A DNA stretch of 64,000 nt. It comes from Candidatus Hydrogenedentota bacterium (GTDB lineage: Bacteria; Hydrogenedentota; Hydrogenedentia; Hydrogenedentales; JAJRTN01). The notes under the pieces were generated by a model. It made no database searches. It saw only the letters and a program-made list of their open reading frames with translations, and had not been told where the DNA came from. Where the stretch lies: NCBI GenBank assembly GCA_024278275.1, contig JAJRTN010000043.1, positions 1-64,000 on the forward strand, given 5' to 3'. This document shows positions 49,456 to 64,000 of this stretch, piece after piece (the stretch's first letter is position 1; each line of letters opens with the position of its first letter). The translations under genes were made by a program, and so were the position numbers.

Positions 49456-51360
49456 TCAACCTCGCGGGTTCTTGAGGAAATAGAAAAATCCGTCCTCGGC
49501 GCCGATGAGCAGGTCCGGAATCCCATTCCGGTCCCAATCCACCACGGTGGGGCAGGTGGTATGACCGGCCAGGTCCCGATCCCCCAGGCGTTCCGGGGCA
49601 TCGAAGCGGAAGGGGACCGAAGAATCCCCCACGTTGCGCAGCAGGTCGATGCACTTGCCGTTTACCAGGATATCGACCCGTCCGTCCCCGTCCCAATCCG
49701 CGAGGACCAACTTGCGGCGGCCGCTCTTGCCCGCTTCCCGGTCATTCAAACGGAGCGGCTTTCCCGCGGCATCCAGGAACACCCGTTTCCCCGGCAACAA
49801 TTCAAGGGAACCGTCATTGCGCCGCCGCTCGAAGAAGGCCAGGTAGCCTTCGTGGTCCAGCATGACCAGGTCGGGAAGCCCGTCTTCGTTCAGGTCAAAC
49901 ACCACGGGACTGGTGCGCCACTGTGTCACCAGCGCGTTGCCCTTCGGCTCCCACCACACCCACGCGGGTTTGGGCGCGGGGCCGGGCCAGGCCACTTCGA
50001 CAGGTTCCGGCGCGGCAAGCCGGGGTGATTCACGCGTGCCCACATTCCGGCACCACATCACCGCGCCCCAGATACTGTTGAACATGAGGTCGGGCAATCC
50101 ATCCAAATCCCAGTCGGCGGCGCTCACCACGGTATAGCCCCACTTGGCCTCGGCGGGCCCCTGGATCGACCCGTTTGGCCCCGCCTGGATCCGCAGCACC
50201 TCCCCGCCCGCCTTCAGGTACACGGGCTTCGCCCACCGTGGCGGGTTGCCCCCGTCCAGATTCTCCACGAAACTCACGTAGCCCGCCGTGTCTCCCACGA
50301 TGAGATCCGCATCGCCATCGCCGTCCCAATCCATGCTGTACGGCGTGCAGAGGGCGCCCACCTTCACCCGGTCCGCCTCCTGCTGAAAAAAACGGGGGGG
50401 CAGGAATTCGGGCGCCTGATTCGGGGTCATGGCCACGCACTCAATGAGGGCGACCCGGCCATCCTCCTGTCCCACCACGAGATCCGTATCGCCGTCCCCG
50501 TCCCAGTCCAACGCAACCACCTGCAGCATCTGAAGGTCCATGGTGATGGGTCGGCCCGCGTGCCGGATAGGCTCGCCCGCCCCATAGCGGGGCACTTGGC
50601 GGGTGCCCACGTTCTCGAAATAGGTGATGGCATCCAGAAAGCTGCCACAGATCAGGTCGAGATCACCGTCCCCATCCCAGTCGGCGAAGTTGGGCGAAGG
50701 GCAGCCGTAGACATCCAACACCTTGCCCGCCGCTTTCACCTGCGTGGCGACCCCATAAACCGGCGCCGCGTCGGTGCCTTCGTTACGCGCCACGTACACG
50801 TACCCGTGCAGCGGTCCCCGGGTCCATCGGCCTTCGCGGTCGAAGGCGTTGTCCCACCCGTAGTCGCGCCAATCGCTCACGCCGATAACAAGGTCACGGA
50901 CCCCGTCCCCGTCATAGTCGCAGCGTTTCCACTGCTTGGCGCGGCCCTGCTGGAAAGATGGATTGAAGCCGATGGACCGGGGCTTTGAGATGCCCGTGCG
51001 CCTGAAATCGGGAAAGAACTCGCCCGGCCCCTGTACCAGGGCCGCTCCGTCGGCCCCGTAGGAAACGGTCAGATTGTGCTTGGCCGGTCCCAAACGCACC
51101 CCCGGCCGGAAAAGGGGAAACGTTGTCTTGCCCGATTGGTTCTCGAAAAAGTAGATCCCCTTGGAGGGCACATTCGCCGTCGCCACCAGCAGGTCGAGAT
51201 CACCGTCGCCGTCATAGTCCATGGGAAGCGGCTGTGCCCACAAACCCACGCCCAAATCGACCACGAGGCCGGGATGGTTATACATCAGCGGTTCCAGGGA
51301 CGGCGCGCCCGAAGCCAGGTTCATCCAGGCCACGGTCAAAATGAGTACCAAGTATTGCAT
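49456..51360 (-). CDS. Exported FG-GAP/VCBS repeat protein
   Basis: The 634-residue protein has a signal peptide (residues 1-18, cut near SGA) and at least nine calcium-loop repeats of the form DxDGDGxxDLxxG: DYDGDGDLDLLV at residue 48, then DYDGDGVRDLVIG, DWDGDGDLDLICG, DWDGDGDTDLVVG, DWDGDGDADLIVG, DWDLDGLPDLMF, DLNEDGLPDLVM, DWDGDGRVDILV, DWDRNGIPDLLIG. Such repeats build an integrin-alpha-like propeller in the periplasm or outside. No enzymatic domain is visible. ATG 51360 has GGGGAGAA eight bases upstream. Confidence 0.88.
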   Translation of the reverse strand: MQYLVLILTVAWMNLASGAPSLEPLMYNHPGLVVDLGVGLWAQPLPMDYDGDGDLDLLVATANVPSKGIYFFENQSGKTTFPLFRPGVRLGPAKHNLTVSYGADGAALVQGPGEFFPDFRRTGISKPRSIGFNPSFQQGRAKQWKRCDYDGDGVRDLVIGVSDWRDYGWDNAFDREGRWTRGPLHGYVYVARNEGTDAAPVYGVATQVKAAGKVLDVYGCPSPNFADWDGDGDLDLICGSFLDAITYFENVGTRQVPRYGAGEPIRHAGRPITMDLQMLQVVALDWDGDGDTDLVVGQEDGRVALIECVAMTPNQAPEFLPPRFFQQEADRVKVGALCTPYSMDWDGDGDADLIVGDTAGYVSFVENLDGGNPPRWAKPVYLKAGGEVLRIQAGPNGSIQGPAEAKWGYTVVSAADWDLDGLPDLMFNSIWGAVMWCRNVGTRESPRLAAPEPVEVAWPGPAPKPAWVWWEPKGNALVTQWRTSPVVFDLNEDGLPDLVMLDHEGYLAFFERRRNDGSLELLPGKRVFLDAAGKPLRLNDREAGKSGRRKLVLADWDGDGRVDILVNGKCIDLLRNVGDSSVPFRFDAPERLGDRDLAGHTTCPTVVDWDRNGIPDLLIGAEDGFFYFLKNPRG

Positions 51361-51592
51361 GCGGATTGTTCTCCCCATCAGACCCTGCGACGCGGACGGG
51401 CGGCATGCCAATCCACATTCCATGGCGTGAACCCAAGGTGCCATCCGCGGGAAGAGCATTTCCAACGAAACCTCGCGGAGGCATTCGCAAAATCGGAGAC
51501 CTTCTCACGGTAACCGTTCACGGCATTCAAAGATCGTCATGGCGAGGGAGCCCGGGCGACCGTGATAATCTTTGGTGCGGGCGATCTTTCAG

Positions 51593-51727: not shown

Positions 51728-53428
51728 CTACATCCCCCCCCCGTAGCGCTTGGGACTGTGCCTTTTTCCGTGACATTCCAGGTAGCATGCACCGCGGCGG
51801 CTGCCGAGGTCAACAAACTCGAGGCGGCCCGAGCGGGGATCGGGTGAAACGATGCTGGTGTCGAAATTGATGAGATGTGAATTGCTTGTCGCGTCTCCCT
51901 GGGTCACACTGATACCGTGGGGGTCGTGGCAGACCGAACAGGGGGTATCTTCTCCCTCAATATGCTTCTTGTGATCGTCAAAGGTAACATCGTTCAGTAT
52001 GCTGGTCCGACTGTGACATTTGTAGCACATCTCGTAAGCCTGGTAACTCTCTTTCGTGTTGTCGGCTGTTCGGTACTCCCGTTCAAGGAGGTAGGGCCAA
52101 TTCGACCCGTGCGGCCCGGCGGGGCCGTTTCCGCCGGCTCCCGGGCCGGAATCACTCGCATGACAATCCGTGCAATACATGACCGAGTTTTCCGTCCACG
52201 GGTTGATAAGGCTGGGAACATCGTTGTTGCGGCCCGGCGCCATCACGGGGTGCATGGACGGGTTGGATGACTGGAACTTCAAGCGGATATTCGGCTGAAA
52301 AACAAGACGCTGGATATTGGGCGCCGGCACGTTGGGGCCGTCCCCGTGGCACTTGAGGCACACTTCATATTCGTACATGACGCTGGAAACGGGGGCTCCC
52401 GCGTCGGACACGCCGGATACCTCGGCAAGGGCCCCGCTCGCATAGGGGGCGGCGGCGTTGCTCGTGTTGGCCGCGTGGGGGTCGTGGCAATCCTGGCATT
52501 CCACGTGGCGACTCATGGTCAGGGCGTCTTCCGTGGGATCGTGGATGCCTTCAAAAAGGCCGACATCGTGGCGGTAAGGTTTCGATAAGTCCTGTTCAAT
52601 GTTTTTTGTCGCCACGTTGCCGTTGTGGCACACCAGGCAGTTGTCCTCTTCACGGGCGTAGTTCAGCAGCCTCTGGCCGCTCCCAGCGGCGTGCGGGGTA
52701 TGGCAGCTTTCACAGGCATTACCGGCCACGCTGGTCCACGTGGTGTTGGGCCAGGGATCGAGGCCGCTGCCATTCCAGGAGGCCCCGGAGGTGGCGTGAG
52801 CGGAGGCGCCCCACCCGCGTTTCGCATGGCAGGTGGTACACAGTGCCGAAAACTGGTTGTCCCGCACCAGGAAATCCGGGTAGGGGGAATAGTGGGGATC
52901 GTGACAGGTCGTACACTGGAGTTGACCATAGGCATCCAAGTGGACGGGGCCGCCCGAGAGAACCGAAGGACTGTTCAATTCCTGGTTCTGTGCGGCCAGG
53001 TTGCCGTCGTATACAAAGGAAATGGGGTGGTCGTCGGAAAGATTCTGGCTCAGGTTGGCCGATCCGGTCATCACACTGCCCATGGTGGGCGGCGTATCCG
53101 CCTGCAAGACCTTTCCCAGGGCGATGGTTCCGTCGTGACAGCTCAGACAGAGCCTTGAGGCATGGGTCGGCTGTCCCGGGCTGGAACCCAGGGTGGAACT
53201 GGAATAGGGGGTGTAGCGAAGCTCGGGCAGGGAGCGATTCCAGAGAGGGGTGGCGGGATTGGCGTTGTGGGGCGTATGGCAGAAAACGCAAACCCGTGAA
53301 AGGGGATCGCCCGGGCCACTCACCGACAGATTGTGCTTGGTTTGCGCCACACCCTGGGCACGGGCGCCGGATACCGTCGCCACGGCGCAGACAAGCAGGG
53401 CAATCACCGTTTTTTTGAAAAGCTTCAT
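51728..53428 (-). CDS. Exported multihaem c-type cytochrome, 11 CxxCH plus one CxxxCH
   Basis: The 566-residue protein has a signal peptide (KKTVIALLVCAVATVSG, cut near ARA-Q) and haem sites CVFCH, CLSCH, CTTCH twice, CESCH, CLVCH, CQDCH, CLKCH, CTDCH, CYKCH, CSVCH, plus CYLECH near the end. Several are of the doubled CxxCH-DPH kind. Residues about 40-240 are paralogous to the tetrahaem protein at 60951-61592 (LWNR, YTPYSSSTL, CLSCHDGT, DHPISF). Its ATG overlaps the TGA of the NHL gene (ATGA), and AAGGATG precedes it. It is the last gene of the electron-transfer set. Periplasmic or extracellular. Confidence 0.92.
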   Translation of the reverse strand: MKLFKKTVIALLVCAVATVSGARAQGVAQTKHNLSVSGPGDPLSRVCVFCHTPHNANPATPLWNRSLPELRYTPYSSSTLGSSPGQPTHASRLCLSCHDGTIALGKVLQADTPPTMGSVMTGSANLSQNLSDDHPISFVYDGNLAAQNQELNSPSVLSGGPVHLDAYGQLQCTTCHDPHYSPYPDFLVRDNQFSALCTTCHAKRGWGASAHATSGASWNGSGLDPWPNTTWTSVAGNACESCHTPHAAGSGQRLLNYAREEDNCLVCHNGNVATKNIEQDLSKPYRHDVGLFEGIHDPTEDALTMSRHVECQDCHDPHAANTSNAAAPYASGALAEVSGVSDAGAPVSSVMYEYEVCLKCHGDGPNVPAPNIQRLVFQPNIRLKFQSSNPSMHPVMAPGRNNDVPSLINPWTENSVMYCTDCHASDSGPGAGGNGPAGPHGSNWPYLLEREYRTADNTKESYQAYEMCYKCHSRTSILNDVTFDDHKKHIEGEDTPCSVCHDPHGISVTQGDATSNSHLINFDTSIVSPDPRSGRLEFVDLGSRRGACYLECHGKRHSPKRYGGGM

Positions 53429-54483
53429 GGCTGAGCATCCTTGATCAATTGAAACACCTGGATGCGCCGGTTGAATGAATCGGCGATCCAAATCCTGTCA
53501 TTTGCGTCCATGAACAACCCCGCGGGAAGCGAGAACTGCCCCGGGCCCGTACCCTGCCCCCCAAACGCCAGGAGAAGTTCCCCCTCCGGGGAGAAAATCT
53601 GTACATTTTCAAACGCCGCGTCGACCACGTAAATCCGGCCTTCCGTGTCCACCCCAATCCCCTTGGGCCGGGCAAAGTCACCGGCGCCATTTCCCGCCCG
53701 GCCAAAACATTGTTTTGCTTCGCCCGAAGGGGAAAAAACCTGCACGCGGAAATTAAGCGAATCCGACACGCAGAGGTCGCCATTGGGCGCCACCGCGATA
53801 TCCGTGGGATAATTGAACTCGCCCGGCGCGCCGCCCCGCTTTCCGAAACGGAGGACCATGTTGCCTTCCCGGTCGAAACCGAAAACTTCACTCCCTATGG
53901 TGTCCACCACGTAGAGCGTTTCTTCCGAAGGACTAAGCGCCAATCCCGTGGGCCGGGACAGCTTTCCCTCACCCATTTCACCTGTCATTTTCCGGCTTCC
54001 GTCAAAGACAAAAACACGTCCGAGGGCGGAGTCCGCCACGAAAACCGTGCCTTCTTTGTCCACGGCCACCCCGACAGGCATGCGCAATTTCGCGGCAAGT
54101 TTGGGTTTCAGGGTCCAGTCCCGCTCTTCCACGAGGTCGAAAAAATGAACGGTGGGAACACCCGGGTCGCATACAGCCATCAGACCGGCTTCATTCTTCG
54201 CAACGGCCATGGGCTTACGCATCCGCACGCGGCGTTTTCCCGTCACCCACCGCGCAACCCGGTTGCCAACCCCCTCTTTACCGCCCGCGTGCGAGGCACG
54301 CACCGCGCCGACGTAACGAATCCGGGCCGCTTCGGGCGGTTGAGGCCACACGAGCGCCGCCGAAGCCTTCAGCCACATACTCCGGGGGCCGGCGCCCGTC
54401 TGGCAGGAAACAAGAAGCAGCGTTGCCAGAACGGTGGTCGCGGACAACAGGGCGGCCAAGAGCCATTTGCGAAACTTCGGCAT
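53425..54483 (-). CDS. NHL-repeat lipoprotein
   Basis: The 352-residue protein carries a lipoprotein signal (ATLLLVSC, lipidated Cys about 27) and six or so NHL blades (for example FNYPTDIAVAPNGDLCVSD, RPKGIGVDTEGRIYVVDAAF), giving a propeller. It shares the blade (D/E)AAFENVQIF with the second NHL protein at 59585. ATG 54483 with GGGAG is chosen; the ATG at 54507 has no ribosome site. It is coupled to the 12-site cytochrome by ATGA. Such propellers often sit beside multihaem cytochromes, probably as scaffolds. Confidence 0.88.
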   Translation of the reverse strand: MPKFRKWLLAALLSATTVLATLLLVSCQTGAGPRSMWLKASAALVWPQPPEAARIRYVGAVRASHAGGKEGVGNRVARWVTGKRRVRMRKPMAVAKNEAGLMAVCDPGVPTVHFFDLVEERDWTLKPKLAAKLRMPVGVAVDKEGTVFVADSALGRVFVFDGSRKMTGEMGEGKLSRPTGLALSPSEETLYVVDTIGSEVFGFDREGNMVLRFGKRGGAPGEFNYPTDIAVAPNGDLCVSDSLNFRVQVFSPSGEAKQCFGRAGNGAGDFARPKGIGVDTEGRIYVVDAAFENVQIFSPEGELLLAFGGQGTGPGQFSLPAGLFMDANDRIWIADSFNRRIQVFQLIKDAQP

Positions 54484-54503
54484 GTCATCACTCCCGTGAA
54501 AGA

Positions 54504-55103
54504 TCATGTTTCAAACGCTTCGATACCCTCGTCGATCAGCTTTAGAACGGCATCCAGGTCGGCGGCGAGCATGGAACTATCCATCGGCTCCGTGGCACCG
54601 GCGGGTTTGCGCAATTGGTCCGCCCGATAGATCAGTTTTTCGGCCGCTTCCTCGAAAGGCTGCAATCGCCGCTTTACATCTTCCGATGCCTTGGTCGCCA
54701 CGCCGTTCCACAACGGTTTGGACGCCCCCGAGTAGGCCGCGGAATTATAGGTGTCAATGTTCCTGATTTCTTTTTCGATGGCCAACAGGGCCCGCGCGGA
54801 CCACGCAATGAGAACCAGTACGGCAAGGATGGCAAGCAAGAAGAAAATGCCCGAAAGCGCCACATTACTCCAAAGCAGCGGGGTACGAATCATGTGCCAG
54901 ATTTCCCCGGTGGGCAGATGGGATCGGTACATGGCTTCGGACAGGGCCGATTTTACAACAAAATACACGGTGGTGGCCGTCACGGCGCCCACGACAAGGG
55001 CCAGGCCCGACATGGAGAGAATGAATCGGGTCTGGTAGCTTTTGTTCACAAAGTACTGACGACGAAGAGGATGGGGTTTGCCGGAAACTGGCTTTTCAAA
55101 CAT
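54504..55103 (-). CDS. Two-TM membrane protein with helical tail, no output domain
   Basis: The 199-residue protein has a basic N-terminus (RRQYFVNKSYQTRFI), TM1 at about 27-50, a periplasmic loop of about 30 residues, TM2 at about 82-103, then about 95 residues of amphipathic helix. The plan is that of a chemoreceptor or kinase sensor cut before any signalling domain. It stops 20 bases before the NHL lipoprotein start. The role is unknown; a similar gene is at 56127. Confidence 0.75.
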   Translation of the reverse strand: MFEKPVSGKPHPLRRQYFVNKSYQTRFILSMSGLALVVGAVTATTVYFVVKSALSEAMYRSHLPTGEIWHMIRTPLLWSNVALSGIFFLLAILAVLVLIAWSARALLAIEKEIRNIDTYNSAAYSGASKPLWNGVATKASEDVKRRLQPFEEAAEKLIYRADQLRKPAGATEPMDSSMLAADLDAVLKLIDEGIEAFET

Positions 55104-55150
55104 TTTCTCATCTCCCTGGATGACTCGAATGCCGCATCCTTACCATGTGC

Positions 55151-55279
55151 CGCTTGCAAAAGGCGATTCTCAGCGATACTTCCGTGTGCTGCGGCTTTAT
55201 TTTCCGCAACATACGGGAACCGGGACCGGATTCGTGGCGCCACGGATGACACGTAATGGGATCCTGGATTCTGCAAATA
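55151..55279. repeat. Copy (B) of the ATTTGCGAAA repeat family
   Basis: The ends are CGCTTGCAAAAGGCGATTCTC and TGGGATCCTGGATTCTGCAAATA. The inner stem pairs GTGTGCTGCGG with CCGCAACATAC. The middle GGGAACCGGGACCGGATTCG matches the family. It sits between two genes of the cytochrome operon and overlaps the heptahaem gene stop-side by a few bases at most. Confidence 0.72.
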
Positions 55280-55282
55280 CCT

Positions 55283-56134
55283 CTACATGTCGTGACACTC
55301 GAAACAGAGCGCGCTTCCTTCATTGCTCATGACCAGTCCATGCTTCTCATTGGAATAGGCCTCGTGACAACTGCAACAGCCCATTTTCCCGTTGAAAAGT
55401 TGGATCCGGGGATCTATCTGGGCAACGGGACGATAGCGTGACTTCCCTTTGCCCCGGGGCGGATAATCCACGCCGATGGGATGGCTGAGGCCTATCTGAC
55501 TATGCTGCCAGGCCCCGCCGCCGCCGCCACCGACCCGGCTCATTTGCGTTTTGGCCACCGTGCCATCGTGGCATCCCAGGCACTGGAGAGACGTTTCATC
55601 GATAAAGGAACGACTCACCACCCCCAGGCCGTTGCCACCCAGATGCGACCGGCTCATTACGCCGCTATGTTTTCCCCCCAGGGCACTTCGCAGGTTGTCG
55701 TGGCATTGTTCGCAAAGAGGGCGCGCGATTTTTTCCGTGCGAAGCATGTATCCCGTCACATCGGGATGATTTTCCCGGTGGGGATAATGGCAGGAGGTAC
55801 AAATCAGACGGCCCGCCCAGTCCAGGGGAAAGGCTTCGGGTAGGGGCCGGTCGACCATGACCCCCGACGGATGGGAGAGACCGGGCTTCATATCGTGACA
55901 GCGCCGGCACAATCGATCCACGTCGGATACGAACAGCAGTTTCTCGCCCTTCCCATGGGCCGACTCGGGATCATTCAGATGACAACTCTTGCAATCCCCC
56001 CCCCTTTCGTGTGGAGAAGCACCCTGCCGGGAAAAGACCACCCCGCCAAGGGTCGTCAGGGCAAACAGGACCGCCAAGACCGCCACCAGCGGCCTCATGA
56101 ACTTCTTTACGCCATGGGTGATCCGTCTATCCAT
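55283..56134 (-). CDS. Heptahaem c-type cytochrome
   Basis: The 283-residue protein has an N-terminal hydrophobic segment (residues about 13-35, LVAVLAVLFALTTLGGVVF) that is either a signal peptide or an anchor. Seven haem sites follow: CKSCH, CRRCH, CTSCH, CEQCH, CLGCH, CCSCH, CFECH. The additional Cys in CCSCH is unusual. His-rich segments SHPSGV, SHLGGN and LSHPIGVDYPPRGKG may supply distal ligands. The ATG overlaps the end of the HAMP-like gene by 8 bases; an alternative start is ATG 56098. Confidence 0.9.
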   Translation of the reverse strand: MDRRITHGVKKFMRPLVAVLAVLFALTTLGGVVFSRQGASPHERGGDCKSCHLNDPESAHGKGEKLLFVSDVDRLCRRCHDMKPGLSHPSGVMVDRPLPEAFPLDWAGRLICTSCHYPHRENHPDVTGYMLRTEKIARPLCEQCHDNLRSALGGKHSGVMSRSHLGGNGLGVVSRSFIDETSLQCLGCHDGTVAKTQMSRVGGGGGGAWQHSQIGLSHPIGVDYPPRGKGKSRYRPVAQIDPRIQLFNGKMGCCSCHEAYSNEKHGLVMSNEGSALCFECHDM

Positions 56135-56774
56135 GGTCGTGCCGTCTCACTTCGGAACCCTGCTGGAACGGACAAGAAGGATGAAGCTTCTCCACGCACG
56201 AAAGAAGCAAGGTCGCCAAACGCACCCTCTCCTCTTCCATAAGCGGCCTGGACCCGCCTTCCTTCGTCAACTCCCGCCTGAAATCGGCAATGGCCCGGCG
56301 TGCTTCACCGGCCTGCTCGATACGGCCCCGTAACCGGGCGACCAGTTCCCGGTACACCAGGGGGAGATGCTGGTCCTGATCCCCCCGTCGAAAAGAAATT
56401 GTCTGCCGCAAATTGCCTCGCCCCAGGGAACGAACCGATTGCTCAAAGCGCACCAGGGGGCCCACGATTTTGTGGGATGCCAATAGCGCCAGAACACCCA
56501 CCACGCACCCCACGAGGACCACCTGCAACAGGCCGGACAGGACGGTTACACCGACCAGCATCATCTGCATTCGGTTGATGCTCGTCAGGGTTTCCACGTA
56601 GGAATCATTGACAAAGCTGGACGCGATCGCCCAGAGCACCGCGAGGGGAAGCAACACCCCGCCCGCCATGAGCAGGCCGGCCTTCACCATGAGTGCGATC
56701 TCAAAACCGGGCATGATGGGTTTGGGAGGAGGGGACGACGCGGCGTCGGATTTTTCGGACATAATGGGTTCCAT
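56127..56774 (-). CDS. Two-TM HAMP-domain protein, no output domain
   Basis: The 215-residue protein has a Pro/Ser-rich cytoplasmic start, TM1 at about 30-50, TM2 at about 70-95, then a HAMP-like segment (SHKIVGPLVRFEQSVRSLGRGNL, in pieces, followed by RRGDQDQ) and a short coiled helix. No kinase, receptor or cyclase domain follows. ATG 56774 has GGAGA nine bases upstream. It overlaps the heptahaem cytochrome start. It may be a membrane adaptor that responds to periplasmic redox state; that is inference. Confidence 0.77.
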   Translation of the reverse strand: MEPIMSEKSDAASSPPPKPIMPGFEIALMVKAGLLMAGGVLLPLAVLWAIASSFVNDSYVETLTSINRMQMMLVGVTVLSGLLQVVLVGCVVGVLALLASHKIVGPLVRFEQSVRSLGRGNLRQTISFRRGDQDQHLPLVYRELVARLRGRIEQAGEARRAIADFRRELTKEGGSRPLMEEERVRLATLLLSCVEKLHPSCPFQQGSEVRRHDHG

Positions 56775-56795
56775 TTGGCCAATCTCCACGGGTGC

Positions 56796-56935
56796 CGTTG
56801 CGAAAAGATGATTCTCGGCGAGTCCACCACATGTTCTTCGGCTATGTTGTGACGCTCCAAACCACAACATACGAAAGACCGGGGCCGAACGCGGTCACGG
56901 GGTGGCGCGTCATAAGATCCTTCATTTCGCAAAGG
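56796..56935. repeat. Copy (C) of the ATTTGCGAAA repeat family
   Basis: The ends are CGTTGCGAAAAGATGATTCTC and AAGATCCTTCATTTCGCAAAGG. The inner stem pairs TATGTTGTG with CACAACATA, a sequence different from copy A but still complementary. GACCGGGGCCGAACGCGGTCACGG is the conserved middle, read as two halves. It lies between the beta-barrel and HAMP-like genes. Confidence 0.75.
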
Positions 56936-56983
56936 CCTCCTCTGTTTGCCGCCTTGATGCAGTTATCCAAACACGGCGCGAGT

Positions 56984-58951
56984 TCAGAACTCCCGCCGCA
57001 AACTTACCCTCACATAATCCTTGGTTTCCTTCTGACCAAGCTGTTCTATGTTGGAATAGCGCGCTCGAATGTCCAGGATCAGTAACTGGTAACGCATTAC
57101 GTAACCCAGGGTCACGCCCAGCGCATCCAGGTTATTCGCGGTGTCGAAGTTCTCCCACCGCTGTTGGCGGTAATCCGCCTCCACTTCCAACATGCCGCGC
57201 CGCGTGATCTGCCCGGACAACAAGACATGGGCATCAATGGCCTTTAGCTTGCGTCCCGTGTCTGAAAACTTCGAGTCCCGGTGCGAGGCCGATAGCCGCA
57301 CATGCCATCCGCGCAGGGGGTCAAAGGAAACGGCCCCCCATTCGGATAGTGTTGTGACGGGAGAAAAGGTGGATTCCACATCTTCATAATCCGCCCCGAC
57401 TTCAAACCATCGCCACTGAAACCGCCCGCCAAAGGCCCTGCGCTCCCGTGATTCCAGGCGGCTTGTCAACTCGCCCTCGACTTGTTCCTGCTTGTTCTGA
57501 TCATAAGCCCCGTAAACCGAAAACCACTGCCGGAACTGGTAGCGCAAATCCACGGAACCACCCCGGGTCTGCACCACCCCCTTGCCCGGAAGGGCATACC
57601 GGTAATCCACCAGGATGGTGGAGTCCAGGGGGATGTCCCCCCCCGCCAATACGATGAGTTCCGTGAAGCCGTTACGGGTTGAAATTAGATAGTCCTGCCG
57701 TAGCCGGTAAACACGCAGATTGTTTTCCGCCGTAACCCATATGGAGCCCACGCGAATATCCGGCTGGCCCAGTTGAATGGGGATGCCAAAACTCACCTGA
57801 TGCGACTCATCACGCACCCATCCTTCGTCCACGGTGGGGGTTCGCTCCAGGATCTCATTGGAGCCGCGTACATGGGCTGAAAACCGGCCCCATCGCCCCA
57901 GGCGCTTGGTATAGGATACCGAAGCGATTTGACCAATGGTGCTCACCGCGCCCGTCGTGGCGTCCTGGAAACGGCCATAAACCTCGGCCTCGGTCTGAAG
58001 GCTGTCATAAAGGGAATAAGAAACCGAGGCACTCCCGTCCCATAAGTCGATACGGTCTCCTTCCACCTCGTTCAGCGAATAACCAATGTTGTAACGGCTT
58101 CTCAGGTTGTCCGTGTGCCGCCAATCAAGGCTTTCCCGGAAGGTATAGTTGTCCGAATTGGTGGTGCCCGATTGCTGTTGAAGCCGTGCGTGGCCAAAAA
58201 AACGCAGATTCTCGTCCGCGCCCAGGGTGGTCAGGTTGCTCAAGGCAAATTGATGGGTCGAGATCATTTTATTAATGGATTCTTGCGTCGCCTTCGTCCA
58301 GTGATACTCGATGTCGCCCCGGGAGCGTTGCGTGATTTCGTACTCTCCCCGAATCAACAGGTCATCCTGGGTCTCATTGATGTCACGGCCCGCGTCGGAT
58401 CCGACCACGGTGTTCTGGGAGTACGTCATGTCAACGGGGACCGGCCCTTTCTTAATGGCCAGGCTCGCCCCCAGCGTGGTGCTGGTGATGGTGTAACTGC
58501 TGGCGAAAGGCTGACTGACATCCAGTTCCTCGCGGTTGCCCTGCAACGTGAGGGTGTAGGGATGCTCCTCGAGGAAAATCAACCTGAAATCGCCTCCCAA
58601 CAACAACCGGTTATTCTGACTCGTCTGAACGGCACTGCCCTCGTTGGTCTCTTGAAGCAACTCGGTCTGGCTTCCCAATTGGAAGCGGAGCAACCGGGGG
58701 TGGTAAATATAGCCATCAAAATCCAGCCGTAGGCTTTCACGGTACTCCAGTTCGCTCGAATCCCATGATATGCCGGTTCCCGAACGCTCACGCGACTGGT
58801 TGTCGTCGGTCACCCGGTACTCCAGGTAACCGTCCAGGCCCGTGAGCTTCAGCATGCGTATCTCGTCTTCTTGCGCGGCCGCGGTATGAAAGCCAACACC
58901 CGCCAAAGTCAAGACCACGATCCATGCTCCTCTGATGTAAGTTCGGATCAT
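56984..58951 (-). CDS. Outer-membrane beta-barrel protein, putative porin of a cytochrome conduit
   Basis: The 655-residue protein has a signal peptide (IVVLTLAGVGFHTAAA, cut before QED) and throughout shows alternating strands with aromatic girdles, for example YRFQDATTG-like and RARYSNIEQ-like strands. It ends in ...VSLRREF, a terminal Phe as expected for BAM-inserted barrels. About 24-28 strands are plausible by length. Its place between cytochrome genes suggests the MtrB/PioB/ExtD role of a sheath for haem proteins. I cannot show homology to those by eye. ATG 58951 is preferred to GTG 58975. Confidence 0.82.
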   Translation of the reverse strand: MIRTYIRGAWIVVLTLAGVGFHTAAAQEDEIRMLKLTGLDGYLEYRVTDDNQSRERSGTGISWDSSELEYRESLRLDFDGYIYHPRLLRFQLGSQTELLQETNEGSAVQTSQNNRLLLGGDFRLIFLEEHPYTLTLQGNREELDVSQPFASSYTITSTTLGASLAIKKGPVPVDMTYSQNTVVGSDAGRDINETQDDLLIRGEYEITQRSRGDIEYHWTKATQESINKMISTHQFALSNLTTLGADENLRFFGHARLQQQSGTTNSDNYTFRESLDWRHTDNLRSRYNIGYSLNEVEGDRIDLWDGSASVSYSLYDSLQTEAEVYGRFQDATTGAVSTIGQIASVSYTKRLGRWGRFSAHVRGSNEILERTPTVDEGWVRDESHQVSFGIPIQLGQPDIRVGSIWVTAENNLRVYRLRQDYLISTRNGFTELIVLAGGDIPLDSTILVDYRYALPGKGVVQTRGGSVDLRYQFRQWFSVYGAYDQNKQEQVEGELTSRLESRERRAFGGRFQWRWFEVGADYEDVESTFSPVTTLSEWGAVSFDPLRGWHVRLSASHRDSKFSDTGRKLKAIDAHVLLSGQITRRGMLEVEADYRQQRWENFDTANNLDALGVTLGYVMRYQLLILDIRARYSNIEQLGQKETKDYVRVSLRREF

Positions 58952-59003
58952 TCGCCCTGGTCCACCCACCGGCACGCTCCGTGAACGAAGCCGCTGTCGG
59001 CAC

Positions 59004-59579
59004 TCACCTCAACAACCCATCTTTGTCGGAAGAATGAGGCGAATGACACGCCAGACATTCATCTCCCTGCTCCGCACGGTGCTTGTCCAGCCCAGGGTAG
59101 GTCTCCAAGGTATGGCACTGACCGCAAATGGCCGATCCCGAATCCAGCAATAAATGCTCATATCGCGATTTATGCGGATCATGACATCCATAACATTGCC
59201 CCGAAACCGCCGGTCCATGCTTCACCGAACCCTCGAATTCCTCCCCGGAATGACAAAGCCCACACAGTTTGGTCTTGACGGTCCGCAACCGGTTGGAGAA
59301 ACCTCCTTCGTGACACAGGTCGCACCGTCGCTCGGCGTAAGGCTGATGCACATAGAAGGTCGGCTCCTCGGGCCGAGTCTCTACGACCGAATTGGTTGTC
59401 TCTACCACCACCTCCTGTCCCGGTTCGGGGACACCGTCGAAAAAGAAACTGAGTGTTTTGTAACGTGATTCAGGTGTTGCACAGCCGGTACACTGCGATA
59501 CCATGAGGGCCGACAGCACCCAGGGCGCCACGGCCTTCCAGGGCAGATCCCGGAAATGTGGTATTCTTTGCCCATCCAC
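59004..59579 (-). CDS. Pentahaem c-type cytochrome lipoprotein
   Basis: The 191-residue protein has five haem sites (CDLCH, CGLCH, CYGCH, CGQCH, CLACH). The N-terminal signal WVLSALMVSQCTGC makes it a probable lipoprotein. CxxCHDPHKS and CxxCHSPHSS are doubled-CxxCH forms. The GTG start at 59579 is 6 bases after GGACGAG and directly follows the NHL gene stop at 59585; the longer frame to 59645 would overlap that gene by 61 bases. With the beta-barrel just downstream, it could be the periplasmic or outer-leaflet cytochrome of a porin-cytochrome complex. Confidence 0.88.
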   Translation of the reverse strand: MDGQRIPHFRDLPWKAVAPWVLSALMVSQCTGCATPESRYKTLSFFFDGVPEPGQEVVVETTNSVVETRPEEPTFYVHQPYAERRCDLCHEGGFSNRLRTVKTKLCGLCHSGEEFEGSVKHGPAVSGQCYGCHDPHKSRYEHLLLDSGSAICGQCHTLETYPGLDKHRAEQGDECLACHSPHSSDKDGLLR

Positions 59580-59584
59580 ACGTA

Positions 59585-60772
59585 TTACTCGTCCGTTTTC
59601 AGAAAGCCATACACATTGATCTTGTTCAGGCCGAACTGACTGCAAACCAGCACCAGGTATTCGATTTCATGACCCGGGGCAACAAGATCCTTGAAGTAAT
59701 CCACATTGTCGTAATCAATAACAACCGAAGCCGGCAGGTTAAGACCGCCCGTATGGTTGCCGGGCGTTCCGAAAAACAGCAGCAGTTTGCCTTCATCGTC
59801 AAAGATCTGGACATTCTCAAAGGCGGCATCAGCCACATAAAGCCGACCTTCCCGGTCCACGGCGATTCCCTTGGGACGCACGAAGTTTCCCATCTCCCGG
59901 CCCAAGGCGCCAATCTGCATCACGAAATTATCGCGCCGGTCAAAGCGCATGACGCGTGTGTTGCCCGTGTCCGACACAAACACGTTGCCGTCCAAATCAA
60001 TGGCGATGTTGGTGGGAAAAAAAAGCTGCCCCTCTCCACTGCCCTTGCTTCCAAAGCGGCGGATTTCATCACCCGTTTCCTTGTCGAGGATAACCACCTG
60101 AGCATTGTCAATATCGCATACATAAAGCTGGTCTTCAAGTAACTCCACATCGGTGGGCCCCATTTTTTCCGGGTCCCCCAGGGAACGAAGGTACTTGCCG
60201 TCCGAATCATAGACCATGATGCGCTTGTGGCCCGTGTCGGCCACGTAGCAGGTGCCGTCGGTATCCACGGCGATATTAATGGGTTTGCTCAGTGCCCCGG
60301 AATATCCCCGGCCAAAGGAGTCAAAACGCTTATTCTTCAAATCAAATATGGCCACGTAATTCGATGTCGTATCACACGCGTAGATTTTTCCGTCATGGAT
60401 GGCGACGCCATAGGGCTTGCCCACAGATTCATCGTTCTCTTCCTCCCCCACGACGAACTTGCGAAAGCCGCCCTTCTTGACCTGGATATCGCTTTTCTTG
60501 CTGAAGGTCCGCAGAAACTGCAAACGCGGCTGGGCCGGCGGGGAAGGGTATAAAACGAGGGGACGCTCCTCGTCTTTCTTTTTCTTCTTGCTTTTGGCGA
60601 AGGCGGTGGAAAACTCGGGAGATAAGAGCGTCATACAGAGCAGTATAATACCGATGGCACGAATCAGGGAAACACGTCGGTGTCCCCCCGTGGTATCCGC
60701 CCGCCGGTGCGGCGAAGGACGGACTTCCGCCTGATGGACCTGGTCTCTTTGGGCTGATGTTTGTTTTGTCAT
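59585..60772 (-). CDS. NHL-repeat protein with signal sequence
   Basis: The 395-residue protein has a basic start, a hydrophobic helix (IGIILLCMTLLSPEFSTAFA), a lysine cluster KKKKKDEERP, then a six-blade NHL propeller (ADTGHKRIMVYDSDGKYLRS, VSDTGNTRVMRFDRRDNF, RPKGIAVDREGRLYVADAAF). The propeller is paralogous to the NHL lipoprotein at 53425. No catalytic residues are evident. The start is uncertain: ATG 60772 or 60784. Exported; likely a scaffold in the same assembly as the pentahaem lipoprotein, whose gene begins 5 bases downstream. Confidence 0.87.
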   Translation of the reverse strand: MTKQTSAQRDQVHQAEVRPSPHRRADTTGGHRRVSLIRAIGIILLCMTLLSPEFSTAFAKSKKKKKDEERPLVLYPSPPAQPRLQFLRTFSKKSDIQVKKGGFRKFVVGEEENDESVGKPYGVAIHDGKIYACDTTSNYVAIFDLKNKRFDSFGRGYSGALSKPINIAVDTDGTCYVADTGHKRIMVYDSDGKYLRSLGDPEKMGPTDVELLEDQLYVCDIDNAQVVILDKETGDEIRRFGSKGSGEGQLFFPTNIAIDLDGNVFVSDTGNTRVMRFDRRDNFVMQIGALGREMGNFVRPKGIAVDREGRLYVADAAFENVQIFDDEGKLLLFFGTPGNHTGGLNLPASVVIDYDNVDYFKDLVAPGHEIEYLVLVCSQFGLNKINVYGFLKTDE

Positions 60773-60950
60773 GCTGTGTCCCATGGTTTCCGGTATGAAC
60801 CGCTTCGTTACACGATGTTCAAGCACCTCGGGAACATTATAATAAGAAAGACGGCAGACGCGCATCACTGCTGCTCGCGCGTCTGCCGCCCTATACCTGG
60901 TCATTTGATTTTAGGTTACTGTCCGCCTCGGTATGGGGTCGCCGCAGGCA

Positions 60951-61592
60951 CTACTTGTTGTGGCAGGTCAGGCAAAGCGCGCTGGAGGCATTGGACTTGA
61001 CCAAGAGCTTGCTATTACCGGCACTGTCATGCACATCGTGACAGGAAGCGCATTCCATGTTGCCATTGAAGAGCATGTCCTCGTCAATCGTTCCGCCCAA
61101 GCCGGAGTTCTGGGAGGAAGGATCATTCAGACCACCGTCCGAGGTCGCGAGCGCGGTATCATAGGCGAACGAAATGGGGTGGTCGTTCGAGAGGTCCGTT
61201 CCGATCAAATCAGAACCGTTGATGAAGTTCGTGCCCGTGGCCCCACCGAAGCTGTCAATGGCCACCGTGCCGTCGTGGCAGGAAAGACAAAGCTTGGACG
61301 TGCCGGTCGGCTGGCCCACTGTGGCCGTCAACGTGCTACTGGAGTAGGGCGTAAACGTGGCCGTGGTCACTTCATGGTTCCAGAGCGGCGCACCCGTGAC
61401 GGAGGTGTCGGCGGCGTGAGGCGTGTGACAGACGACACAAATCTCGCCACCGGACCAGCCACTGCCCGAGAAGTCATGGTCACTGCCCGAGATCCCGGCG
61501 TAGGCCACTTGCCCGCCAAAGGCGAAGGCAACCACGCCGATGACCGCCACGGCCAGGCCAAAGTACATTCCACGCTGTTTTTTCGTACTCAT
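60951..61592 (-). CDS. Exported tetrahaem c-type cytochrome
   Basis: The 213-residue protein has a signal peptide (VAVIGVVAFAFGGQVAYA) and four haem sites: CVVCH near residue 52, then CLSCH, CASCH and CLTCH at the C-terminus. The spacing and the segments APLWNHE, TPYSSSTL, CLSCHDGTVA, DHPISFAYD match the N-terminal third of the 12-site cytochrome at 51728. AAGGAGA is 6-7 bases before ATG 61592. The upstream gap of 204 bases probably holds a separate promoter, so this small protein may be made at higher level than its neighbours. Confidence 0.92.
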   Translation of the reverse strand: MSTKKQRGMYFGLAVAVIGVVAFAFGGQVAYAGISGSDHDFSGSGWSGGEICVVCHTPHAADTSVTGAPLWNHEVTTATFTPYSSSTLTATVGQPTGTSKLCLSCHDGTVAIDSFGGATGTNFINGSDLIGTDLSNDHPISFAYDTALATSDGGLNDPSSQNSGLGGTIDEDMLFNGNMECASCHDVHDSAGNSKLLVKSNASSALCLTCHNK

Positions 61593-61733
61593 TTCGTTCT
61601 CCTTTTGCATTGTTGCATGTTTAACCCGCACCATTTTCCGTTCTCGGAGCTTCCTCCACTCCTTTACATTAGAAGTTTATCATTGAATCCGGACACTATA
61701 CATCAGATTAAAACACGGAAATCTCTCTAATTA

Positions 61734-61754
61734 TCTACGGGTAAAACCCGTAGA
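61734..61754. promoter_or_regulatory. Perfect 9-bp hairpin with AAA loop
   Basis: TCTACGGGT (61734-61742) and ACCCGTAGA (61746-61754) form a perfect stem. It lies 43 bases past the stop of the TPR gene and about 140 bases upstream of the tetrahaem start codon, with no T-run on either side. It may stabilise or partly end the upstream message, or control the tetrahaem gene. Confidence 0.5.
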
Positions 61755-61796
61755 CGCTTTCCTTCAATTTTCCATAACCCACTGTCGTACAATGAA

Positions 61797-62774
61797 TTAC
61801 CTGTTTGACAGGACCGCCTCCAGTCCTTCCTTGTAATAACGACCAGCCTCTTTGGGATTCCCTTCCTTCTCCGCCTGAAGCCCCAGCGCGTAATACAGCA
61901 AAGGATCGTGCTCGCCTTGGGCAAGAGCTTCCTCAATCAGTGGTTGTCCTTCCTTGGCCCGACCTAAACGCAACAGGGCCAGCCCTTTACCCCCCTGCCA
62001 TCGGGAATTGGCGGAGGCTTTCGCTTCCGCGGCGGTAAAGATGGTCAGGGCTTCTTTATTCTTCCCCTCGCGCAGCAGCAACCAGGCCAAGGCAATGCCG
62101 CTGTCCGTGTCTTCCGGGTTGGCCTCCCAGGCCTTGGACAGCAAGGCGCGGGCGCCTTCCAGGTCGCCCCGCTCAATCAGCCGCCGGGCCAAGCCGTAAC
62201 GGGACGCCCCCCGGTCGTTTTTCTTCACGGGCTGTGCCGGCGCCAAGCGGGCCTCGTGTTCCGAGGCGGAAATCTTTCCGGCCAGCAAATCCAGATGGGC
62301 ACGGGCCAGTTTTTGGAAATCGCGACGGTACCCGGCGTAATAGAATTGCAGTCGCCCCGCCCCATCCACGAAACCCACGGCCGGAGCCACAATCACGCCG
62401 AAGGCCCCGTAGGCGGAACGGTCGGGGTCCAGGTACACGGGAAAGCGCAAGTCCATGGATTTCGCCGCCTCGGCCACGTCCCCCGGTTCCACCTCGCCCG
62501 AGCAGATGGCAATGAATTTCGCCTCTTTTTCCGAGTAATCTGCGGATAGTTCGGATAATTCGGTCAAGAGACGCTTTGAATAGGGCTGCCCGAGCCGCCA
62601 GAACACGATCACGGCGGGCGTTCCATGCAACAGATCCGCCCCTTTCAGAGGGGCGCCCTCCAAGGATTGCACTTGCACCGGGGGGATGGCTTCGCCCGTG
62701 GTGACCGCCTCAAAAGCGGTGGCCGAGGAAAGCAGCAGGGAAAGAAGCAAAACCGTACCGGACACGACACCCAT
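61797..62774 (-). CDS. Exported thioredoxin-fold/TPR protein lacking CxxC
   Basis: The 325-residue protein has a signal peptide (TVLLLSLLLSSATA). A redoxin/TlpA-like domain covers residues about 25-165: IPPVQVQSLEGAPLKG, PAVIVFWRLGQPYSKRLL, GVIVAPAVGFVDGAG. The usual WCxxC is replaced by WRLGQPYS, so no redox-active pair remains. The C-terminal half has about four TPR-like repeats (ARALLSKAWEANPEDTDS, ALTIFTAAEAKASANSR). It may be a chaperone or assembly scaffold for the cytochromes. ATG 62774 with GAGAGG is chosen. Confidence 0.82.
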   Translation of the reverse strand: MGVVSGTVLLLSLLLSSATAFEAVTTGEAIPPVQVQSLEGAPLKGADLLHGTPAVIVFWRLGQPYSKRLLTELSELSADYSEKEAKFIAICSGEVEPGDVAEAAKSMDLRFPVYLDPDRSAYGAFGVIVAPAVGFVDGAGRLQFYYAGYRRDFQKLARAHLDLLAGKISASEHEARLAPAQPVKKNDRGASRYGLARRLIERGDLEGARALLSKAWEANPEDTDSGIALAWLLLREGKNKEALTIFTAAEAKASANSRWQGGKGLALLRLGRAKEGQPLIEEALAQGEHDPLLYYALGLQAEKEGNPKEAGRYYKEGLEAVLSNR

Positions 62775-62817
62775 CCTCCCTCTCAGGTTATCCCGTGGCC
62801 ACGCGATCCGCACGGGC

Positions 62818-64000
62818 TCAGGAACCGGTCTTGTTGCGATCATAGGTAACTTCGGCATGGCATCCGGGTTGGCATGAACCGCCGTTCTCCGTCTTGTTGA
62901 AGCCGATGGGAAGCGCCCAGTTGCCGTAGGGCACACTTTCGCGCAGATGCCGGGGAAGGGGACTGGCGTGAACCTCGTGGCAGGCACGGCAGGTTCTTCC
63001 GCGTTCCGCCTTGTTCACGTGGAGAAAGTGAAGGTTCTGATCCCCGTCCCGGAATCCCGTGAGCCGCTTGGTATATTGCTCCTTGGCCATGGTGGGTTCG
63101 TGGCACGTGAAACACAGAGCATAATTTTTGGGCTCGTAAGGGCTGTAGAATTTTGCCGGGTAGGCCTCTTTCAAGAGCCGGAAATGGGCGCCCCCATGGG
63201 GGGAGTGACACCCGGAACATCCCCCCTCGCGTAACGGGCCGTGCCAACCTTCGTTCTCCTCAAGCAACTTCTTCATGTTTTGAAGGTCGGCGCCGTCCGT
63301 GGCCTTAATGGGTTTGTCATGACACCCCAGGCACAACGCCGACTCTTCCGCCTTCAGCAGGGGCGCCACGCTTGAGCCGTGGGGAAGATGGCATTTCACG
63401 CACCCATCGGGATCCTCCACCGGGCCATGCCCCACCGCGGCTTCCGTGGCGCGTTGAACCACATCTTGGTGGCATTTCGCGCACAATTCCCGAACCGTGC
63501 CGGGTAACATCTTGGGCCTTGGACCACTGTGTGGGTTGTGACAATTCGCGCAGTTTTCCTTCACCGGCTTATGCACGAAGCTGCCCGAGGTCATGTCCGC
63601 GATAAAATCGGTATGGCAAATGGCGCACAGGTCGTTCCCCGCGGCAAGGAGGAGTTTCTCCTGGGCGGAAGCGTGTGGATTATGGCAAATCGTGCAGGCC
63701 CCGACCGCGGCGGGCCCGTGCTGGTACTTGCCTTCCATGATTCCCTGGTCGTGACACGTAAAGCACAGTTCACCCTGGTTGTCCGTGATGAGCATGCCCT
63801 TGGTGTTGGAGCCATGGGGGTCATGGCAGTTCAGGCAATCGTCCTGAACAGGCATGTGAAGGTTTGCTTCCTGGTCATAGGTATCGTGGCAACTGCCGCA
63901 CAGTTCAACCCCCGGCGCCATTTCCTTGAACTCATGCTTTTTGCCTTTCGGATCGTGACATACCTGGCATTCCCCCATGGCGACGGGACCATGAACGTAC
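62818..64000 (-). CDS. Large multihaem c-type cytochrome, N-terminus outside window
   Basis: The frame is open past the right edge: upstream of the first internal Met the codons continue YVHGPVA, the same spacer found between other haem repeats, so this is an internal part. The visible 394 residues hold thirteen CxxCH motifs (CQVCH, CGSCH, CLNCH, CFTCH, CTICH, CAICH, CANCH, CAKCH, CVKCH, CLGCH, CSGCH, CFTCH, CRACH) plus CQPGCH near the C-terminus. Repeats HGPV...CxxCHxPH of about 35-40 residues mark doubled-CxxCH architecture. It is the first visible gene of the leftward electron-transfer set. Confidence 0.92.
   Translation of the reverse strand, partial: YVHGPVAMGECQVCHDPKGKKHEFKEMAPGVELCGSCHDTYDQEANLHMPVQDDCLNCHDPHGSNTKGMLITDNQGELCFTCHDQGIMEGKYQHGPAAVGACTICHNPHASAQEKLLLAAGNDLCAICHTDFIADMTSGSFVHKPVKENCANCHNPHSGPRPKMLPGTVRELCAKCHQDVVQRATEAAVGHGPVEDPDGCVKCHLPHGSSVAPLLKAEESALCLGCHDKPIKATDGADLQNMKKLLEENEGWHGPLREGGCSGCHSPHGGAHFRLLKEAYPAKFYSPYEPKNYALCFTCHEPTMAKEQYTKRLTGFRDGDQNLHFLHVNKAERGRTCRACHEVHASPLPRHLRESVPYGNWALPIGFNKTENGGSCQPGCHAEVTYDRNKTGS

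Follow-up and report, generated by a model that had tools for sequence, protein, structure and literature searches.

A conserved gene cassette for a probable OmcE-type cytochrome nanowire and its outer-membrane anchor

The OmcE nanowire of Geobacter sulfurreducens (Protein Data Bank (PDB) entry 7TFS; PMC12954529) is built from subunits in which one haem is ligated by a histidine of the adjacent subunit (PMC9473688). For OmcS wires, the osc operon has been proposed to serve folding (OscH), secretion (OscEFG) and morphology (OscD) (PMC13194489, PMC12977616). How cytochrome wires are assembled and anchored, and where electrons enter them, is described as unresolved in reviews (PMC12307469). Here we analyse an eleven-gene cluster of a Candidatus Hydrogenedentota bacterium (assembly GCA_024278275.1, 5.35 Mb), all of it on the minus strand at positions 51,728 to 64,000 of the window, which is the initial 64 kb of the 101-kb contig JAJRTN010000043.1. 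We named the genes, in order of transcription, A14, TrxTPR, E4, NHL1, P5, BB, HAMP2, P7, HAMP1, NHL2 and E12. The locus is probably an OmcE-type nanowire cassette that would supply a wire subunit, an outer-membrane anchor or conduit, and assembly factors. An earlier reading made from the letters of the DNA (the sequence-only reading) had proposed a porin-cytochrome conduit across the envelope; the route through barrel and cytochromes is supported, with MtrB as the top TM-score among 50 listed PDB fold matches and synteny conserved, but the OmcE-type nanowire parts had been overlooked.

E4 aligns over nearly its entire chain with OmcE (7TFS, E=3.5e-21) and with 9YUQ (E=5.4e-23), a multihaem cytochrome whose PDB entry comprises 16 chains (phmmer against PDB sequences). 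Both alignments span all four CxxCH motifs together with the histidines of HD, CHTPH, DHP and CHxVH, and the E4 chain stops two residues past its last haem motif, like that of OmcE. Among 101 relatives of E4, the four CxxCH motifs and the four distal histidines are kept in 94-100% (94-99% for the distal histidines). Cassettes often carry two or more copies of the gene. From this homology, E4 is predicted to polymerize into a wire. The sequence-only reading had counted the four-haem gene as just another cytochrome, a view that gives way to its OmcE homology and to the OmcE domain found in the 12-haem gene.

E4-like genes with five haems were also seen. The host genome holds one on contig 62 (L021 8169-12100), with an extra CxxCH between motifs 3 and 4; a propeller and then a 13-haem gene follow. 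This five-haem form recurs beside many cassettes, and in L023 (15999-19058) such a paralogue adjoins a 1,019-residue protein with an NHL propeller fused to a 13-haem domain, a natural fusion joining propellers to cytochromes.

The second carrier of an OmcE-type domain is E12. Its residues 1-224 match 7TFS (E=3.1e-27), as does a profile search (hmmsearch) over profile positions 8-210 (E=2.4e-47), and the chain then continues with eight further haems beyond the point at which E4 ends. When scored with a profile built from four-haem E4 proteins, the N-terminal unit reached a median of 183.5 bits. In a tree of 150 domains, the OmcE-like domains of E12 form a single clade (support 100/98) and therefore fit one origin. 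Among the large core proteins, conservation is highest in E12 (39-61% identity among relatives). Although about three rounds of the ligand order H-CxxCHxxH-CxxCH-H-CxxCHxPH-CxxCH can be traced along the protein, we rejected a description as three fused OmcE units: units 2 and 3 had medians of 22 and 10 bits, compared with 16-29 bits for control four-haem windows of the 15-haem protein. By sequence, then, only the N-terminal domain is claimed as OmcE-like. Because this domain extends into eight haems where E4 stops, E12 most likely sits at the end of the wire, which makes it a candidate end-piece or anchor of the filament. A Foldseek search with the E12 model returned no matches, which is unsurprising because the fold is held by haems; few or no fold matches were reported for OmcE and OmcS (PMC9473688).

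Gene order places these two proteins in a recurring set. A locus scan baited with E4 yielded 69 loci, to which families were then assigned by profiles; as E4 was the bait, finding it in these loci carries no evidential weight. The complete core (E4, NHL1, BB, NHL2 and E12) is present in 43 loci outside the window, from about eight phyla, counting scan loci and class relatives and leaving out the duplicate L037. Carriers belong to Hydrogenedentota, Calditrichota, Bacteroidota, Chlorobiota, Acidobacteriota, Desulfobacterota including Geobacteraceae, Pseudomonadota, and a Thermodesulfovibrionia/Nitrospinota bin. Metagenome bins, whose taxon labels may be wrong, account for most of these carriers; named strains among them are Geomonas paludis Red736 and Malonomonas rubra DSM 5091. 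The commonest adjacent pairs were E4-NHL1 (54), NHL2-E12 (50), P5-BB (35), NHL1-P5 (34) and BB-NHL2 (28). Because the same genes recur in order in dozens of genomes, the set is not a chance arrangement. Lack of conserved synteny had been named beforehand as grounds for abandoning the conduit proposal, and the synteny turned out to be conserved. Both propellers, at first regarded as an unusual accessory pair, belong to the conserved core.

Searches baited with the barrel gave a consistent picture. Within the class, BB was found in 5 of 68 genomes (host included), and in these five genomes the barrel contig also carries close E4 genes; in Geomonas paludis, the search retrieved a second, more divergent locus with A14, NHL1, P5, NHL2, E12 and E4. 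When 44 complete cassettes are compared, NHL1, BB, NHL2 and E12 covary in pairwise identity (r=0.66-0.91). Many Gammaproteobacteria cassettes have an eight-haem gene after E12, and P5 and A14 were not seen in them. Two Bacteroidetes bins show NHL2 and E12 without E4 or barrel, beside haem-biosynthesis-like genes (L087 4166-6858, L088 8973-11689); L088 stops right after E12.

The AlphaFold model of BB (predicted local distance difference test score (pLDDT) 91.2) consists of 17 strands, an inserted beta-sandwich (residues 384-461) and 11 more strands. A large beta-barrel ending in Phe had been read from the sequence, and both features hold; its length is 663 residues from a GTG start, with the 655 given earlier possible from a later start. 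Among the 50 PDB fold matches listed, the best TM-score belongs to MtrB (6r2q_B, 0.47/0.48), with TonB receptors, LptD and FimD at 0.41 or lower. The window BB matched no Pfam and no NCBIfam family above cut-off, so that the match to an unrelated porin family that had been named as a second ground against a conduit did not occur. The MtrB_PioB family matched neither BB nor 50 relatives, and PDB sequences gave no match to BB even with a 50-member profile. BB may be a new barrel family by sequence, with its best fold score among the listed matches to MtrB. The insert holds 9 of the 21 columns with at least 80% conservation within 78 of 624 residues. Strands counted back from the periplasmic C terminus by the usual convention would place it on the outer face of the model. 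As the part richest in conserved columns, it is a likely docking site, probably at the cell surface. A phage tail-tube family, NF052337, matches BB at 24.7 bits against a cut-off of 60, and 19 of 50 relatives (best 5.5e-10). We set aside a phage origin of the protein; the match coincides with the insert (window 57593-57826) and points, in our reading, to a sandwich motif common to both.

Taken together, these parts suggest the following mechanism. E4 would be exported and polymerize with stacked haems, with histidine-haem bonds linking its subunits as they do in OmcE. E12 would join the filament through its OmcE-like domain, sit at one wire end and connect the wire electrically to the outer-membrane complex via its eight extra haems. 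BB and the lipoprotein cytochrome P5 would form the outer-membrane gate, on which the beta-sandwich insert of BB would dock the wire. A14 may ferry electrons across the periplasm and be fed from the inner membrane by P7 together with HAMP1 and HAMP2, the HAMP-like membrane stubs. Assembly would be the task of both propellers and of TrxTPR, the redoxin/TPR protein, as proposed for OscD and OscH in OmcS wires; OscH is said, in work by Shen in 2025, to be a prolyl isomerase and OscD to be propeller-like. More tentatively, we raise the possibility of a mobile, self-contained nanowire system in which an E4 filament grows on an E12 adapter, electrons pass through a barrel of a new family that bears a docking domain at the surface, and the wire subunit seems to move between phyla more freely than its machinery.

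Several observations weigh against a nanowire cassette. The window E4 has nearer relatives than OmcE (7TFS), which groups in the tree with other E4s and E12 domains. In G. sulfurreducens, omcE lies near ppcA and biogenesis genes, as judged by locus numbers (PMC2700814), and an adjacent cassette may therefore not be needed for a wire; what OmcS and OmcE wires do physiologically is also a matter of dispute (PMC13194489). E4 covaries less with the machinery than the machinery does internally (r=0.35-0.63 in the 44 complete cassettes), and NHL2 and E12 occur without E4 in L087. The analysis establishes homology, ligand conservation, synteny and the fold class of the barrel; polymerization, anchoring, the locations of the parts and the direction of electron flow are predicted from these. 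The window E4 is about 70% identical to a Calditrichota E4, whereas the window barrel and propellers are nearest to those of its own class. E4 may be under strong constraint, or it may be exchanged more freely; either would fit the data.

The same genes could be explained as a porin-cytochrome conduit only, with P5 or E12 inside the barrel and E4 as a non-polymerizing, soluble cytochrome of the periplasm or cell surface. MtrB has the top TM-score to the barrel among the matches listed, P5 is of the paired-CxxCH, DmsE-MtrA-like type (TIGR03508, E=4.6e-11, below cut-off), and membership of a nanowire family by sequence is no proof of polymerization, as noted for OmcS relatives (PMC12977616). We nevertheless consider this unlikely: E4 retains every haem ligand of a filament former and ends as OmcE does, it is a fixed member that cassettes often carry in at least two copies, and E12 has the same OmcE domain. 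Because E4 is an OmcE homologue and E12 carries an OmcE domain, we favour a nanowire cassette over an MtrCAB-like conduit alone. Less probable still is that the barrel acts like a pilus usher, as a secretion channel that exports E4 subunits and not as a sheath for electron transfer. FimD ushers are among the listed fold matches (E=3.8e-9), ushers likewise contain an inserted beta-sandwich, and OscEFG have been proposed to secrete OmcS (PMC13194489). However, FimD reaches a TM-score of 0.27-0.32, compared with 0.47-0.48 for MtrB, the insert appears by strand count to lie at the outer mouth, and in 35 adjacent pairs the gene immediately before the barrel encodes a cytochrome. We regard as highly improbable a third alternative, in which E12 itself forms the wire: three OmcE-like units would make it a stand-alone 12-haem conductor, and E4 would be accessory. 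The high conservation of E12, its repeated ligand order and the occurrence of NHL2 and E12 without E4 would fit such a conductor, but units 2 and 3 scored no better than control windows.

Table 1. Coordinates, descriptions and supporting matches of the eleven cluster genes (positions in the window; aa, amino acids; TM, transmembrane segment)
Gene	Position (strand)	Description	Evidence
A14	62818..64000 (-), start beyond window at contig position 64143	15-haem c-type cytochrome, 441 aa	PF09699 E=1.6e-73
TrxTPR	61797..62777 (-)	Redoxin fold without CxxC, then TPR repeats	PF00578 E=9.3e-12, TPR_19 E=2.4e-12
E4	60951..61634 (-)	Four-haem cytochrome, homologue of OmcE-type nanowire subunit	phmmer to 7TFS, 9YUQ
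NHL1	59585..60904 (-)	NHL-repeat beta-propeller	PF01436 E=8.3e-17
P5	59004..59645 (-)	Five-haem cytochrome, lipoprotein-like, paired-CxxCH type	PF09699 E=8.9e-20
BB	56984..58975 (-)	Outer-membrane beta-barrel, ~28 strands, conserved beta-sandwich insert (residues 384-461)	AlphaFold model
HAMP2	56127..56870 (-)	Two-TM protein, weak HAMP similarity, without output domain	PF00672 E=0.0053, below cut-off
P7	55283..56134 (-)	Seven-haem cytochrome	PF09699 E=8.2e-19
HAMP1	54504..55103 (-)	Two-TM stub	No Pfam match; P7 neighbour in relatives
NHL2	53425..54507 (-)	NHL-repeat beta-propeller, lipobox-like LVSC	PF01436 E=7.9e-31
E12	51728..53491 (-)	12-haem cytochrome: N-terminal OmcE-like four-haem domain plus eight more haems	hmmsearch to 7TFS

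The spacing of neighbouring genes in the cluster lies between about -67 and 179 bases, subject to uncertainty in some start codons, in agreement with the overlapping or closely spaced genes on one strand read earlier (Table 1). Haem motif counts of 12, 7, 5 and 4 were reproduced, that of E12 comprising 11 CxxCH and one CxxxCH. For A14, the 14 motifs counted inside the window were found again, and extending the contig rightward, as had been suggested, located the start of its reading frame 143 bases beyond the window edge; the full gene holds 15 motifs (13 CxxCH, one CxxxCH and one Cx4CH). Homologues of this 15-haem type are present in many cassettes. TrxTPR, described from the outset as a TPR/thioredoxin-fold protein without CxxC, matches AhpC-TSA and TPR families and does lack the motif. 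Its open reading frame extends to 62987, the start codon being uncertain, and it adjoins A14 in several cassettes; it is likely to be a periplasmic assembly factor.

Both NHL propellers recognized in the sequence-only reading match PF01436, and NHL1 carries a lipoprotein signal in most relatives. Propellers in comparable clusters have been described before (PMC5539420, PMC9769857). Identification of the propellers as ScyF was discarded, the match being far under cut-off, as was an apparent NHL2-E12 gene fusion in L060, which is merely a long open frame that contains no NHL domain. P5 matched none of the PDB sequences, and its position is taken by a nine-haem form in some Bacteroidota. The C-terminal ~100 residues of P7 are weakly like the OmcE C terminus (27-53 bits with the OmcE-type profile in most relatives), and full-length P7 relatives within the class are confined to cassette genomes.

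HAMP2 stands beside P7 in five adjacent pairs. The HAMP2-P7-HAMP1 module is inverted upstream in L023, present in L022, L025 and L092, partial in L060, L063 and L079, and missing from most cassettes. The HAMP stubs are thus an optional, separable part of the system. A HAMP2-like stub also follows 26-, 16- and five-haem (P7-like) genes and a propeller in Malonomonas rubra (L106 10670-11368); because they occur in a 26/16-haem operon, such stubs are not special to this system. Of the two HAMP-like proteins with two transmembrane segments that had been proposed, one is weakly upheld by its PF00672 match below the curated cut-off and the other has no match. Their pairing, which had seemed unusual, is indeed a feature of a minority of cassettes, but a related stub exists elsewhere.

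Upstream of the cluster on the same strand lies an Rrf2-type regulator (PF02082, E=3.6e-33; contig 64862-65383, L009 4862-5383), a family that could couple cluster expression to iron-sulphur or redox state. The host genome also encodes one NapC/NirT-type gene and a ResB-type gene. An FG-GAP-like repeat protein of about 620-670 residues is encoded downstream on the same strand (window 49456-51465), and a protein at L009 9447-10334 has a PEP-CTERM-like sorting tail (VPEPATLALLGLGLVGLGIRRYR).

The cassette joins a wire subunit, a chimeric adapter with an OmcE domain and an outer-membrane barrel in one conserved block across about eight phyla. If the more tentative reading of a mobile, self-contained system is correct, it would be the first genetically complete account of how an OmcE-type wire plugs into the cell. 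Its carriers add Hydrogenedentota, Calditrichota, Bacteroidota and others to the groups with OmcE-type wire genes; electron transfer to minerals or partner cells is seldom considered in these groups. As Geomonas paludis and Malonomonas rubra are cultured, wire anchoring becomes open to gene deletion and cryo-electron microscopy. The gene set is undescribed in the open literature searched, a scope that leaves out Shen 2025, Baquero 2023 and Wang 2022, so a prior description is possible.

Among described systems, OmcE (7TFS; also 9YUQ) shares with E4 homology over the full length, four haems with as many distal histidines, and the way the C terminus ends. It differs in that 7TFS is not on the nearest tree branch and that omcE has ppcA and biogenesis genes as neighbours, not a barrel and propellers (PMC2700814). 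Like the cassette, the osc operon (PMC12977616, PMC13194489) brings a nanowire cytochrome, a morphology protein, channel or secretion proteins and large periplasmic cytochromes into one block, and a beta-propeller is present here too, the two NHL propellers being matched to OscD by fold class. By contrast, the cluster products scanned contain no peptidyl-prolyl isomerase (PPIase)/rotamase domain, with a redoxin/TPR protein instead, and this cluster has no 26-haem protein. Malonomonas rubra has both kinds of locus. Its L105, which we call osc/Oet-like from its 26-haem, PPIase and propeller content and not from direct comparison with Geobacter, comprises 26-haem, PPIase, 698-residue barrel-like, 12-haem and propeller genes, and its barrel has no detectable homology to BB (hhalign probability 6.8%).

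With MtrCAB and PioAB the cassette shares a large barrel (about 28 strands, compared with about 26 in that type of conduit, and wide enough for a cytochrome) that has MtrB as its top TM-score among the listed fold matches. It differs from them in lacking an MtrB/PioB-family sequence match for the barrel, in having the five-haem P5 and not a ten-haem MtrA-type protein beside it, and in having no MtrC-type gene. The OetABI and 16/26-haem propeller operons of bacterial partners of anaerobic methanotrophic archaea likewise combine a propeller, cytochromes, a putative nanowire gene and horizontal transfer (PMC10553843, PMC5539420). Their core is a propeller, 16-haem and 26-haem proteins and a PPIase with OmcS/OmcX-type wires, whereas the core here is E4, two propellers, a barrel and E12, with haem counts in the cluster of 15, 4, 5, 7 and 12. 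Verrucomicrobial porin-multihaem clusters also set a barrel beside multihaem genes in a non-proteobacterial phylum; as described, they differ in pairing a porin of at least 20 strands with an eight-haem protein, and propellers or an OmcE homologue go unmentioned (PMC5615132). In Desulfovibrio ferrophilus, DFE_0448-0465 similarly contains multihaem genes with NHL proteins but no apparent porin-cytochrome conduit, and Fe(III) oxide reduction persisted after cytochrome deletion (PMC9769857). By analogy, the cassette would work like a nanowire assembly cluster, yet it falls outside osc, Oet and MtrCAB.

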